DNA of 64,000 bases from an uncultured Pelagibacteraceae bacterium (GTDB taxonomy: Bacteria > Pseudomonadota > Alphaproteobacteria > Pelagibacterales > Pelagibacteraceae), in assembly GCA_902620525.1 (NCBI GenBank), contig CACNIK010000001.1, positions 62,001 through 126,000 of the forward strand, in the 5' to 3' direction. Within the stretch, counting starts at the first letter, position 1, and each line of letters begins with the position of its first letter. Below, piece by piece: positions 4,720 to 59,866 of this stretch. The notes under the pieces were generated by a model, which worked only from the letters and a program-made list of their open reading frames with translations, did not search any database and was not told the DNA's origin. Both the position numbers and the translations under genes were made by a program.

Positions 4720-4804
4720 TGGTGCGGTCGGAGAGACTCGAACTCTCATGGGAAAACCCACACGGCCCTCAACCGTGCCTGTCTACCAATTTCAGCACGA
4801 CCGC
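4720..4804 (-). tRNA. tRNA-Leu (anticodon GAG)
   Basis: An 85-base class II tRNA read on the minus strand. The acceptor GCGGTCG pairs with CGACCGC, the anticodon arm is CACGG-TTGAGGG-CCGTG giving anticodon GAG, a long variable arm is present, the T loop is canonical (TTCGAGT) and CCA is encoded. It lies between the divergently arranged fdh and nadA genes. Confidence 0.95.
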
Positions 4805-50185: not shown

Positions 50186-51280
50186 TTAATTCTCCTTTAT
50201 AAATGTTTTATTAATTATTTCATCATCAAAATTAATATTAAAATCTTTTTTCTCCCTACTATATAAATTTCGAATAAAACTAAATAAATTTTTTGCATAT
50301 AAACTTGATGCTGTTAACGGCAACCTATTCATTAAATTTTTAACACCTATAATTTTAATATTATTAACTACGTTTATTTTTCCAGGTTCAGAGTGTGCAG
50401 AGTTTCCTCCTTGCTCAGCAGCTAAATCATAAATAATTGAACCAGGTCTCATTAATTTTACTAATTGTTCAGTTAAAATTCTCGGTGCGGGTTTACCAGG
50501 TATTAAAGCAGTACAAATAACAATATCATTTTTTTTTAATGCTTCCTGCATCATTTCTGCTTGTTTATTTTTATAATCTTCGCTCACTTCTTTAGCATAA
50601 CCTCCAGAAGTTTCAGCATCTTCAGCTTGATCAACAGACAAAAATTTACCGCCTAAACTCTCTACTTGCTCTTTAGAAGCAGATCTTACATCAGTAGCAG
50701 AAACAATAGCGCCCAATCTTTTTGCAGTGGCAACAGCCTGCAATCCTGCAACACCAGCGCCAATAACTAAAACTTTAGCTGCAGGAACAGTGCCTGCTGC
50801 TGTCATCATCATAGGAAAAGCTTTTTCAAATTCAAATACTGAGTCAATAACAGCTCTGTATCCGGCTAAATTGGACTGAGAAGAAAGAACATCCATAGAT
50901 TGAGCTCTTGTAATTCTCGGCAAAAGTTCTAAAGAAAATAATTTAATATTTTTTTTCAGAATTTCACTAATTTTTTTTGCATTTAGTGATGGATTAAGCA
51001 TACCCAAAAGTATTGTATTTTCTTTTAGATTTTTAATTTCTTCCTCTGAAGGAAAGTTAACTTTAATAAGTAAATTACATGTTGTTAAAACTTCTTGAGA
51101 AGAATTTTTAATCTCAACGCCTTCTTTTTCAAATTCTTCATCTTTTATTCCTAAATGACTAGCATAGTTTTTCTCAATACATAATTTTAATCCCAGTCCG
51201 ATTATATTTTTTGCAGTCTCTGGTGTTAAAGAAACTCTTTTTTCTTGAGATAAATCTTCTTTTGTAGATCCAATAATCAT
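50186..51280 (-). CDS. pntAA: NAD(P) transhydrogenase subunit alpha part 1
   Basis: A 364-residue soluble NAD(H)-binding domain I. It resembles alanine dehydrogenase: RVSLTPETAK, the NAD-binding VLVIGAGVAGLQAVATAKRLGA segment, the TSGGYAKE loop and PGKPAPRILTEQLV. Starts ten bases downstream of the aa3 oxidase small-subunit stop and leads the pnt operon. Confidence 0.96.
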   Translation of the reverse strand: MIIGSTKEDLSQEKRVSLTPETAKNIIGLGLKLCIEKNYASHLGIKDEEFEKEGVEIKNSSQEVLTTCNLLIKVNFPSEEEIKNLKENTILLGMLNPSLNAKKISEILKKNIKLFSLELLPRITRAQSMDVLSSQSNLAGYRAVIDSVFEFEKAFPMMMTAAGTVPAAKVLVIGAGVAGLQAVATAKRLGAIVSATDVRSASKEQVESLGGKFLSVDQAEDAETSGGYAKEVSEDYKNKQAEMMQEALKKNDIVICTALIPGKPAPRILTEQLVKLMRPGSIIYDLAAEQGGNSAHSEPGKINVVNNIKIIGVKNLMNRLPLTASSLYAKNLFSFIRNLYSREKKDFNINFDDEIINKTFIKEN

Positions 51281-51544: not shown

Positions 51545-51661
51545 GCCTGGCAACGTCCTACTCTCCCGTGTCTTAAGACAAAGTACCATCGGCGCTGAAG
51601 GACTTGACTTCCGAGTTCGGAATGGGATCGGGTATTGCCCCTTCGCAATAATTACCAGGCA
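51545..51661 (-). rRNA. rrf: 5S ribosomal RNA, not linked to 16S or 23S in this window
   Basis: About 117 bases on the minus strand. The termini TGCCTGGTAA and TTGCCAGGC pair as helix I, and the conserved internal CGATCCCATTCCGAACTCGG and GATGGTACT segments are present. No 23S rRNA lies within the 12 kb upstream. In cultured SAR11 genomes the 5S gene is known to be separated from 23S by a hypervariable region, which agrees with the genes that follow. Confidence 0.95.
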
Positions 51662-57250: not shown

Positions 57251-58645
57251 CTAATAAAGTTTTAAATTTTTCTTTTTTTTGTAACCATTTATTATTGCAA
57301 GTAAGAAAAACAAAAAGGACGAATTGCTAGAGCCAAAAAAACTTCCAGAACTTCTAATTGGGAAAAGCTCAACTAAAATGAGTACTAAGAAACAAAATAT
57401 GAACACGTTTTCTTTCATACTTAATTTTTTTAAGGTTGATATTTTATTTTTCAAAATAGAAAATATTAAATATATAAATAATAAAGTACCAATTATGCCT
57501 ACATCATTTAAAATATCTAAATAATAATTATGTGGATGTGACTCACAAGCTCTATTGGGTAAATGAAGTTTAGTTTTGCATCTTGTTTTAAAAGATTTTA
57601 TCCCACTTCCTATAAATGGTTTTTCAGTCCATAGTTCAATTGCTGTCAAATAAATTGCTGAATGGCCACTGCCGAAGACCATTACATTATATTTTTTTTT
57701 TATTTTTTGATTTACTGTACCATCTTCTTTTAGAAGTTTTTTATCAAAAAAAATTTTTTCCTTTTCTAATTCGGGATATTTATTTTTAAAATTACTTGAT
57801 AAAAAATTTGAAGCAGAGACGATATTATCGAAAAAACTTACATAATAATTTTTTAAATTTTCTTGCGATTTAATTGATGAAAAAAAAATCATTATACTTA
57901 ATAAAATTGAGGCTATTATCTGATATCGAATTTTTTTAATGAATAAAAAAAATAGAAATAGTGTAAGTAGAAACATTATAAGAGGCATACGGTTTCCAGA
58001 AAATAAAATTGATGTGAAAAAGATTACAGATAGAAATATAAAAATATATGAATTTTTTATTTTAATTTTTTTTGTAAATAAGATTGGGTAAAAAAGTAAA
58101 ACAAAAAAACAAAATCTTTGAATATAACCACCAGCTATGAGCTCCTCTTTTAAAAAACCACTCAAATGATATTGGCTATATTCATAAGCTTTAAACCCAA
58201 AAATATTTACCCCAAAGAAAAATTGAAAAATTATATCAAAAGATAAAAGTAATACAGATATAGTAACTGAGATCAAAAAGTATCTAAAATTAAATTTTCC
58301 AACATTAATAAAAATACTCGTTATTAAAAAAAAAGGTAAATATCTTAAATATTTTAATGATTTAAAAAATTGCTCATTATGTAAATCTTTAATGTTTGCT
58401 AAATAAGTAAAAAGTATTATTAAAATAAAAAAAGATGTTGCTATAAATGTAATCTTTTTATTTAATAAATTAAATTTGTCATATAAGCTTATTGTTCCTA
58501 TAAGACTAATTGATATGATAGTTAAATTTAAAACTGCATTTCCAATTAAAAAAGAAATTGGAAAAATAAAAAATAATATATTTAGTATTTTGTAATTTAT
58601 TTCATTAAAATTTTTTATTTGCATTTTTATAAAATATTTTGTCAT
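57251..58645 (-). CDS. O-antigen ligase/polymerase family membrane protein
   Basis: A 464-residue integral membrane protein with about ten to eleven helices and one larger periplasmic loop (about 250-385). The loop carries VFGSGHSAIYLTAIELW, KPFIGSGIKSFKTRC and ESHPHNYYLDILNDVGIIGTL, the glycine/HPHN pattern of the Wzy_C (WaaL/Wzy) family. It would ligate or polymerise O-antigen units on the periplasmic face. Its ATG lies four bases after the CCA of the tRNA-Val-like gene; an alternative start is Met8. Confidence 0.88.
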   Translation of the reverse strand: MTKYFIKMQIKNFNEINYKILNILFFIFPISFLIGNAVLNLTIISISLIGTISLYDKFNLLNKKITFIATSFFILIILFTYLANIKDLHNEQFFKSLKYLRYLPFFLITSIFINVGKFNFRYFLISVTISVLLLSFDIIFQFFFGVNIFGFKAYEYSQYHLSGFLKEELIAGGYIQRFCFFVLLFYPILFTKKIKIKNSYIFIFLSVIFFTSILFSGNRMPLIMFLLTLFLFFLFIKKIRYQIIASILLSIMIFFSSIKSQENLKNYYVSFFDNIVSASNFLSSNFKNKYPELEKEKIFFDKKLLKEDGTVNQKIKKKYNVMVFGSGHSAIYLTAIELWTEKPFIGSGIKSFKTRCKTKLHLPNRACESHPHNYYLDILNDVGIIGTLLFIYLIFSILKNKISTLKKLSMKENVFIFCFLVLILVELFPIRSSGSFFGSSNSSFLFFLLAIINGYKKKKNLKLY

Positions 58646-58649
58646 TAGT

Positions 58650-58724
58650 TGGTGGACCGTGTAGGTAACGCTCCTACTACCCCTCCCATGTCAAGGGAGT
58701 ACTCTACTTTTGAGCTAACGGTCC
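58650..58724 (-). tRNA. tRNA-Val-like gene (anticodon GAC) with aberrant D and T loops
   Basis: A 75-base cloverleaf on the minus strand. The seven-base acceptor (GGACCGT/ACGGTCC), anticodon stem (CTCCC/GGGAG), and T stem (GTAGG/CCTAC) pair perfectly, the anticodon loop TTGACAT gives GAC (valine) and CCA is encoded. The D loop is AAAAGTA, without the G18-G19 pair, and the T loop is AGCGTTA in place of TTCRANY, so the normal D-loop/T-loop contacts cannot form. All other tRNAs in the window are canonical. It may be a functional unusual tRNA, a non-translational tRNA, or a decayed copy. Confidence 0.75.
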
Positions 58725-58786: not shown

Positions 58787-59866
58787 TTAATGAGAGTTTT
58801 GTCTTAATGATATAATTTGTTTGGCTCTTCTAAAGCACATAAATTCTAATAATCTACTCATTTTCCAACTAATTGCTCTTGGTATCCATTTATTCTCTTT
58901 TTCTGAACATGAATAGTTTTTAATAGCTTTTTTAACTTCCTCTTTTGTTAGGATGTCTGAGATTAATTTTCTTAAGTTTTTTTTACCTTGTTGTAAGTTT
59001 ATCTTTTTTAAAATAATTGATCTACTGAATGAAACTAAAGCACCTATAGTGAAATAAATTAAAGCCTGATCAGAAAGCTTCGTGCTTTCTTTTGCTGATA
59101 AACCTCTTTTCCTAAAACAATTTTCTACACTATTTTTAGCTACTATAAAGTTTGACATTGGAAAATTTCTTATTCCCTCAGAGATGCCACTACTAACATT
59201 TGGATAAATATGGTAAAAGTAAAGCTGTTTTCTAATATATTTTACTTTATTGCAATAAGCTAGGACATCCCAAGAAAATGTCTCGTCTTCTAAATATCTC
59301 ATTTCTTTTTTAAAATTGATATTATTTTTTTCAATTATTGATCTTTTGAAAAGCCGTCCTGTAATGCCTAGCAGGCCGTCAGAATATAACGGATCGTATA
59401 ATCTTTTTTTTATTTCATCAGTTATTTCCTGACCTATAAAAACTTTATTACTATCGTAGAGATAAAATTTCTCTCTTAACATTTTATTTTTTTTAATAAC
59501 TATCTTATCACTCATTACTAAATCGGAATTATCTTTTTTTGCTTCATAATATAAAGATTTAAAAGTGTCTTTAGCTATATCATCATCAACGTCTAAAAAA
59601 TAAATAAATTCACCACTTGCTACCTGTAGTCCTGAATTTCTAGCAGAAGCTGGGCCAATATTTTTTTTGTGTGAAATTAGTTTTATTGAAGAAGAATAAT
59701 TTTCTTTAATTATTTTTACACCGTTGTCGGTTGATCCATCGTCAATCATAATAATCTCATATGGTTTATCAAAATCTTGATTGATTAACGAATTAATGCA
59801 TTTATTTAAGAAAATTTTAGCATTATAAAAAGGAATAATTACACTAATTGTATATGGCTCTGACAT
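58787..59866 (-). CDS. Glycosyltransferase family 2 protein
   Basis: A 359-residue GT-A enzyme: SVIIPFYNAKIFLNKCINSL at the start, IIMIDDGSTDNG, then the metal-binding YFLDVDDDI (D-x-D) and YLEDETFSWDVL. The C-terminal 130 residues are helical and unlike other proteins I recognise. Probably transfers one sugar in O-antigen or capsule assembly. It lies upstream of the tRNA-Val-like gene, separated by 62 bases. Confidence 0.9.
   Translation of the reverse strand: MSEPYTISVIIPFYNAKIFLNKCINSLINQDFDKPYEIIMIDDGSTDNGVKIIKENYSSSIKLISHKKNIGPASARNSGLQVASGEFIYFLDVDDDIAKDTFKSLYYEAKKDNSDLVMSDKIVIKKNKMLREKFYLYDSNKVFIGQEITDEIKKRLYDPLYSDGLLGITGRLFKRSIIEKNNINFKKEMRYLEDETFSWDVLAYCNKVKYIRKQLYFYHIYPNVSSGISEGIRNFPMSNFIVAKNSVENCFRKRGLSAKESTKLSDQALIYFTIGALVSFSRSIILKKINLQQGKKNLRKLISDILTKEEVKKAIKNYSCSEKENKWIPRAISWKMSRLLEFMCFRRAKQIISLRQNSH

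Follow-up and report, generated by a model that had tools for sequence, protein, structure and literature searches.

A tRNA gene with complete stems and neither the GG of the D loop nor the TTC of the T loop raises the question of whether it is a decaying relic, a tRNA withdrawn from translation, or a working tRNA whose elbow is held together by other bases. In the available text of PMC7912444, G18-Psi55 and T54-A58 are presented as conserved tRNA contacts in all domains of life. The 64,000-nucleotide stretch of DNA from an uncultured Pelagibacteraceae bacterium analysed here (the window) contains such a gene, a tRNA-Val(GAC), for which an earlier note, made from the sequence alone, had proposed a role outside translation.

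A complete cloverleaf

ARAGORN calls a tRNA-Val(gac) on the minus strand with exactly the limits 58650-58724, and in a search of its own genome (G000) the gene scores 49.5 bits with RF00005 against a curated cut-off of 29; a filtered Rfam cmscan of the window missed it. Its parts are listed below, with elbow position numbers assigned through a gapless alignment to canonical tRNA-Val(GAC).

58650..58724, minus strand: tRNA-Val(GAC) gene, 75 nt, with encoded CCA and alternative elbow (ARAGORN, RF00005, fold, family of 15)
58705..58711, minus strand: D loop AAAAGTA, with A18 at 58708 and G19 at 58707 (sequence and alignment to canonical copies)
58690..58692, minus strand: anticodon GAC within the loop TTGACAT, a loop identical in 15/15 family members (ARAGORN, alignment)
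58666..58672, minus strand: T loop AGCGTTA, with A54 at 58672, G55 at 58671, C56 at 58670, G57 at 58669 and U58 at 58668 (sequence and alignment)
58650..58652, minus strand: encoded CCA end (sequence)

The cloverleaf has 21 of 21 stem pairs, among them a G.U pair in the D stem, and a minimum free energy of -29.2 kcal/mol (z of -2.89 against shuffles). The earlier note had described the long stems as complementary, the anticodon loop and CCA as intact and the two loops as AAAAGTA and AGCGTTA, and all of these readings hold. Promoter and terminator signals around the gene were at the level of shuffles. Integration of the surrounding island at the 3' end of the tRNA was rejected, as the last 15 nt are unique in the window with up to three mismatches allowed.

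The genome has 28 RF00005 matches, of which 27 were read, including one normal tRNA-Val(TAC); the second, normal tRNA-Val(GAC) for which the earlier note had advised a search was not among these 27. The 28th match (G000:C3:95259-95347) is, to judge by its 89 nt, probably a long-armed tRNA for Leu, Ser or Tyr. In this assembly, which is 96% complete, the pattern for a canonical tRNA-Val(GAC) had no match. Two other tRNAs of the same genome may be recorded here. A partial tRNA-Ser-like sequence (L022:51-125, minus strand; G000:C1:208889-208963) scores 27.9 bits and has a GGA-like anticodon arm; with an intact tRNA-Ser(GGA) some 0.9 kb away, it may be a duplication or integration scar. ARAGORN also calls a tRNA-Leu(gag) on the minus strand of the window at 4720-4804 that is in neither the window nor the own-genome Rfam list.

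Exchanged and retained elbow bases

Canonical bacterial tRNA-Val(GAC) (RF00005) shares with the variant its cloverleaf, anticodon loop, G19, C56, G57, G53-C61 pair and CCA, and differs from it in having G18, U54, U55 and A58, which in the gapless alignment are replaced by A18, A54, G55 and U58. The D loops align without gaps (canonical ATTGGTA against AATAGTA or AAAAGTA), and only G18 is replaced while G19 stays. In the family of 15 SAR11 copies described below, A18, A54, G55 and U58 occur in 15/15 members, leaving none with G18-U55 or U54-A58, and G19 is found in 15/15, C56 in 14/15 and G57 in 15/15. With G19 and C56 retained, the G19-C56 contact can form, and the loop changes look like a compensated swap, from G18.U55 to A18.G55 and from U54.A58 to A54.U58. 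The earlier note had counted G18, G19, U54, U55 and A58 as lost together; this is right for four of the five, but G19 is kept. Its further claim, that the normal elbow contacts are impossible, is not supported: G19-C56 is kept, and the bases of 18-55 and of 54-58 have been swapped as pairs that covary.

Comparable departures have been described in other tRNAs. According to the accessible part of PMC7566577, eukaryotic initiator tRNA and the tRNA-Ala of insects and mammals have A54.A58 and R15/A48, and the unusual pairs of that report were not observed in bacteria or archaea. The SAR11 variant resembles these tRNAs in A54 and in A15 with A48 (15/15), but has U58 in 15/15 members rather than A58, exchanges 18-55 too, and is bacterial and viral. 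With tRNA-Pyl and type II mitochondrial tRNAs, as treated in the text available from PMC7609411, it shares the absence of the usual G18/G19 and T-Psi-C signature; those tRNAs have lost the signature or rely on other contacts, whereas the variant retains the positions and the G19-C56 pair, and its bases covary. Canonical copies, too, have an unusual 15-48 pair, with U15/A48 in two of them (L040 and L041) and A15/A48 in 15/15 alternative copies in the alignment.

A family with covarying stems

A covariance model built from three copies was run over 297 relatives, many of them partial genomes, so that all counts are lower bounds. It found 15 genomes at 89.5 to 106.6 bits, against at most 75.8 bits for other tRNAs, and its next-best matches, in the same genus, were canonical tRNA-Val(GAC). 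The 15 alternative copies comprise 12 distinct sequences, in which the loops and the anticodon (GAC in 15/15) are kept while the stems change in step: 98.8% of stem cells are paired, both sides have changed in 11 of the 21 pairs, and the covariation observed was reached by 0/500 shuffles on four of five measures and by 53/500 on the fifth. A complete cloverleaf is thus maintained through covariation, as in a tRNA, and the earlier note's suspicion that the stems are under selection and the loops a linked alternative rather than decay is borne out by the same loops on compensating stems in 15 relatives. The unpaired stem cells number three in all, every one in G033. This genome is placed in the same genus as the window; its copy has three broken pairs and the gene order of its contig matches that of sister-genus genome G211, so the copy may be degenerate, or its DNA may have been misplaced.

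The distribution of the variant differs between the two genera. In the sister SAR11 genus, that of the closed genome G211, the variant pattern occurs in 107 of 151 genomes and in 19 of the 23 good genomes, always as one copy, and the canonical tRNA-Val(GAC) pattern in none of the 151; the variant is there a near-core single gene. In the genus of the window, counted by genome handle, 13/169 have the variant, 6/169 the canonical pattern and the other 150 neither. Among its genomes of at least 90% completeness only one of 14 (G000) has the variant, and its absence from the other 13 indicates that it is dispensable in this genus. The variant and a canonical tRNA-Val(GAC) were found together in none of the 297 relatives; it is in no case an extra copy beside a normal tRNA of the same anticodon.

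The slot upstream of the 5S rRNA gene

The setting of the gene was compared among carriers with reference to the following features of the window.

51545..51659, minus strand: 5S rRNA (Rfam, 91.5 bits); the tRNA slot is upstream, at a distance of 6,991 nt in the window
50186..51280, minus strand: ORF that we take to be pntA-like, forming the core flank of the slot; it adjoins the 5S gene here and, as a conserved neighbour, in relatives
57251..58645, minus strand: O-antigen-ligase-type ORF, starting 5 nt after the tRNA (Wzy_C, 47.5 bits)
58787..59866, minus strand: family-2 glycosyltransferase ORF, upstream of the tRNA (Glycos_transf_2, 108.7 bits)

The last two confirm the remark in the earlier note that the tRNA sits between surface-glycan genes. 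At 12 of the 15 carrier loci the variant and the 5S gene share a strand, with the variant upstream at a distance of 68 to 6,991 nt, which is 68-105 nt in four (G217, G170, G194 and G112); around the variants of G033, G211 and G132 no 5S gene falls within the stretch read. Canonical tRNA-Val(GAC) of the same genus was read at five of its six loci (G101 being left out) and stands 65-85 nt before the 5S gene in three of them, the remaining two having no 5S gene within about 1.5 kb. Since variant and canonical gene both precede the 5S gene, the slot consists of tRNA-Val(GAC) followed by 5S, with glycan genes intervening in G000; it belongs to the 5S gene at the edge of hypervariable region 2. The earlier note had regarded a normal version at this locus in other strains as a sign of error or decay: three relatives do have a canonical copy there, yet the variant is no product of decay.

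No gene neighbour is common to all 15 carrier loci, and the next downstream gene varies. Generic sugar-gene clusters recur at 12 of the 15, as expected in this island, and the next upstream gene belongs to a family-2 glycosyltransferase cluster in 7/15. In the sister genus the variant lies elsewhere, within 1.5 kb of a tRNA-Met at 8 of 10 loci. A domain scan of ten island proteins gave glycosyltransferases, the O-antigen-ligase type, an aminotransferase, radical SAM proteins, a methyltransferase, an epimerase and one weak oxygenase match, with one protein lacking any match; none of the ten is an aminoacyl-tRNA-dependent transferase, and two further island ORFs lay outside the scan. The position at the edge of the island accounts for the glycan setting better than a function would. 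Aminoacyl transfer to surface glycan, tried as an explanation, was rejected for want of a neighbour common to the 15 loci and of an aminoacyl-tRNA-dependent enzyme among the ten proteins.

The same elbow in Patescibacteria and viruses

A pattern that combines A18 and the alternative T loop and allows any anticodon matched named genome contigs in at least 119 stretches. Among the 119 matches listed, 115 are SAR11 tRNA-Val(GAC) and four are from Patescibacteria, where the anticodon assigns them to tRNA-His in two Daviesbacteria and one Microgenomates bacterium and to tRNA-Phe in a Gribaldobacteria bacterium. One of the Daviesbacteria is represented by a single-contig chromosome (CP066688.1, 820 kb, G449) with 44 Rfam tRNA matches and 44 ARAGORN tRNAs around them. 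Its tRNA-His(GTG), with D loop AAAAGTA and T loop AGCGTTA, was found once among these 44, a list that contains no tRNA-Asn and has therefore missed at least one tRNA, perhaps intron-bearing, and could have missed a second tRNA-His too. The tRNA-Arg(CCT) of the same chromosome has D loop AGTAGATA and T loop TGCAACT. A canonical tRNA-His pattern that presumes a GAGY D stem and no intron, allowed up to two mismatches, had one match in each of three Patescibacteria, none with a His anticodon in place. Histidine needs a tRNA, and with one tRNA-His found on the chromosome the alternative elbow most likely supports charging and decoding, as far as this incomplete tRNA list can tell.

In viruses the elbow pattern occurs on 96 contigs at 98 tRNA-like places. 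ARAGORN called 63 tRNAs with an AGCGT loop on these contigs, of which 45 are Ile(GAT), 6 Val(GAC), 4 Val(TAC) and 3 His, with some others. Six named phage records have the full swap in none, and two of them, Xanthomonas phage X1 and Pseudomonas phage Astolliot, have half of it, A54.U58 with G18-U55. G55, usually with A18, is present in most of the tRNAs read on three IMG/VR contigs: L357 (14/15), L444 (12/13) and L407 (13/16; IMGVR_UViG_3300017971_000201). The tRNA sets of these three look as if wholly converted to G55. Another contig, L331 (CAKLQF020000003.1), is labelled phage yet has genes of chromosomal type (dapE, cysJ, tRNA-Val/Asp repeats) and may be bacterial DNA.

Covariation within the viral elbow

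With the D stem fixed, viral contigs whose T loop reads AGNGTNA have A18 in 96 cases and G18 in none, and those with TGCRA have A18 in at least 120 and G18 in one (L469), which ARAGORN does not call as a tRNA. Canonical TTCRANY, scanned in combination with A18, occurs on five viral contigs, all called as tRNAs, and ATCGTNA, scanned in combination with G18, on at least 120.

ARAGORN found 3,835 tRNAs at 341 viral loci, 2,983 of them distinct, and 2,800 distinct tRNAs with 7-nt T loops fall outside the search patterns; the loci were picked through these patterns, and their other tRNAs thus come from tRNA-rich viruses. The D loops of this set were classed by their GG string. GG is present in 2,448 of the 2,458 tRNAs with TTCRA and in 95/95 of those whose T loop starts with ATC and has U58, and AG without GG is present in 88 of the 101 with TGCRA. 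The other 13 have a GG string; ten of them were inspected, of which eight also allow A18 G19 and two, both from L407, are unclear.

The 756 distinct outside-pattern tRNAs with 7-nt D loops, in which loop bases 4 and 5 were taken as positions 18 and 19, allow the pairs to be tabulated. Positions 18-55 are GU in 708, AG in 40, GC in 4, UU in 2, AU in 2 and GG in none (Fisher 1.6e-64, kinship ignored), and A18 accompanies G55 in 40/40. Positions 54-58 are UA in 710, AU in 25, CA in 8, AA in 8, GG in 4 and UU in 1, and swap separately from 18-55. Base 18 tracks base 55 almost perfectly in viral tRNAs, and the G55 class extends over 37 isoacceptor types.

Positions 19-56 are GC in 731 of the 756, AU in 18, UC in 4, and UA, AC and CC in one each, so that this pair too has been exchanged, as A19-U56 in 18 tRNAs and U19-A56 in one. 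The tRNA-Met of Pseudomonas phage Astolliot (L327) has G18 A19 with T loop TTTGATT, and a tRNA-Arg of Tunturiibacter phage Tunturi_5 (L329) has GU with T loop TTAGAGT.

Absence of TruB from the carriers tested

In bacteria Psi55 is made by TruB, the other known Psi55 enzymes being reported as non-bacterial in the text available from PMC7912444. Pfam TruB_N had no match in G000, G211, G217 or the Daviesbacteria chromosome, and matched in 14/14 control genomes. Across the 297 relatives it is present in 107, but in 0/169 genomes of the window's genus and in 0/15 carriers; carriers make up 15 of the 190 TruB-less genomes against none of the 107 with TruB (Fisher 0.0015, with kinship ignored and the association clustered by kinship). 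It was likewise absent from 25 further genomes, namely 22 good sister-genus genomes (18 of them carriers), which with G211 makes 0/23, and three more elbow-bearing Patescibacteria, represented by two drafts of about 1 Mb and one 0.3-Mb fragment. TruB was thus found in none of 37 tested carriers (15, 18 of the sister genus and 4 Patescibacteria). The six own-genus genomes with canonical tRNA-Val(GAC) and four sister-genus non-carriers also lack TruB, and TruB-less genomes that keep the canonical gene or lack the variant imply that TruB loss would permit the exchange and does not force it. TruB loss would accordingly be a permissive cause of the elbow swap.

Discussion

We consider it quite likely, on comparative sequence evidence, that the gene encodes a functional elongator tRNA-Val(GAC), accessory to tRNA-Val(UAC), with a compensated alternative elbow that is tolerated through the loss of TruB. 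Such a tRNA would work beside tRNA-Val(UAC) and, by standard wobble pairing of GAC, read GUU and GUC. Valine is most often encoded by GUU (429/918) in the window's mechanically called ORFs of at least 200 codons. In its elbow, A18.G55 would take the place of G18-Psi55 and A54.U58 that of T54.A58, while G19-C56 and G57 stay; G19-C56 together with the two new pairs would hold the elbow, and the L shape should be kept. Without TruB, U55 would no longer be needed as a Psi55 substrate and the swap could be tolerated. The geometry of A18.G55 and A54.U58, charging by ValRS and use by SAR11 ribosomes are predictions of this model.

The earlier note had proposed a non-translational tRNA that evades EF-Tu and whose valine would go to a surface glycan or a structure of the wall, and the glycan genes on either side of the gene, with a glycosyltransferase cluster next upstream in 7 of 15 carriers, make the idea understandable, as does the staphylococcal non-translational tRNA-Gly, in which elbow bases are changed and the anticodon is intact. 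That tRNA-Gly nevertheless differs from the SAR11 variant, for which no partner transferase was seen among the ten island proteins, which has no second, canonical isoacceptor of the same anticodon, and which keeps G19. The setting, moreover, is that of the 5S gene and varies among carriers and genera, and the same elbow is found in many isoacceptors and in the sole tRNA-His found on the Daviesbacteria chromosome. The variant replaces canonical tRNA-Val(GAC), which stands in the same slot at 3/5 loci, and was never seen beside it in 297 genomes. A valine donor is on these grounds very improbable, and the surface-transfer idea that the earlier note drew from the glycan setting found no support. 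Even less credence can be given to a pseudogene in decay or a faulty assembly: the gene is scattered through its own genus (13/169) and the G033 copy has its three broken pairs, but 15 of 297 relatives (12 distinct sequences) keep the loops and anticodon on covarying stems and 19 of 23 good sister-genus genomes carry the variant.

A tRNA of phage type, shielded by its elbow from enzymes that would attack or read a normal one and present in SAR11 as an immigrant or a defence-linked spare, is a better candidate than either, though still an unlikely one. The elbow is common in phage tRNA arrays, and on three contigs most of the tRNAs have G55 (14/15, 12/13 and 13/16). Escape of phage tRNAs through anticodon-loop changes has been published (PMC10264068, whose available text mentions neither T-loop, D-loop, elbow nor T-arm), and Cas12a3 contacts the T-arm backbone according to the accessible part of PMC12851939. 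Outside the loops, however, the alternative copy L080 shows an identity of 82-85% with two canonical SAR11 copies, against 57-61% with three tRNA-Val of phages that have the alternative elbow. The comparison is less clear for other SAR11 alternative copies, such as alt_G193 (72-75% to canonical, 64-72% to phage copies), and in the sister genus the variant is a near-core single gene. The closeness of L080 to canonical SAR11 copies suggests that the exchange arose on a SAR11 gene, other variants being less clear. Two narrow viral patterns for the SAR11 gene matched no contig, and blast against phages gave three partial matches, two in tRNA-Ile and one in tRNA-Val genes; a phage origin of the SAR11 gene was rejected on the empty patterns and the L080 identity, with other variants unclear.

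Beyond the single gene, and with somewhat less than even confidence, it may be proposed that bacteria and phages share a second self-consistent elbow code, A18.G55 with or without A54.U58 and more rarely A19-U56 or U19-A56, which would open upon TruB loss; some phages would have converted most of the tRNAs read, perhaps for TruB-less hosts or for escape from elbow-reading enzymes. No description of an A18/G55 elbow exchange in tRNA was found in the openly licensed literature searched. Steinberg's group is said to have explored changed elbows through laboratory selections of suppressor tRNAs.

That natural bacterial and viral tRNAs, apparently including the sole tRNA-His of one chromosome, exchange both pairs in covariation means that the elbow has an alternative solution. 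The exchange makes comparative evidence available on contacts that as a rule vary too little for covariation to be seen, and links freedom of sequence to the loss of one modification enzyme. For annotation it carries a warning against taking the absence of GG or TTC from a tRNA as proof of decay.
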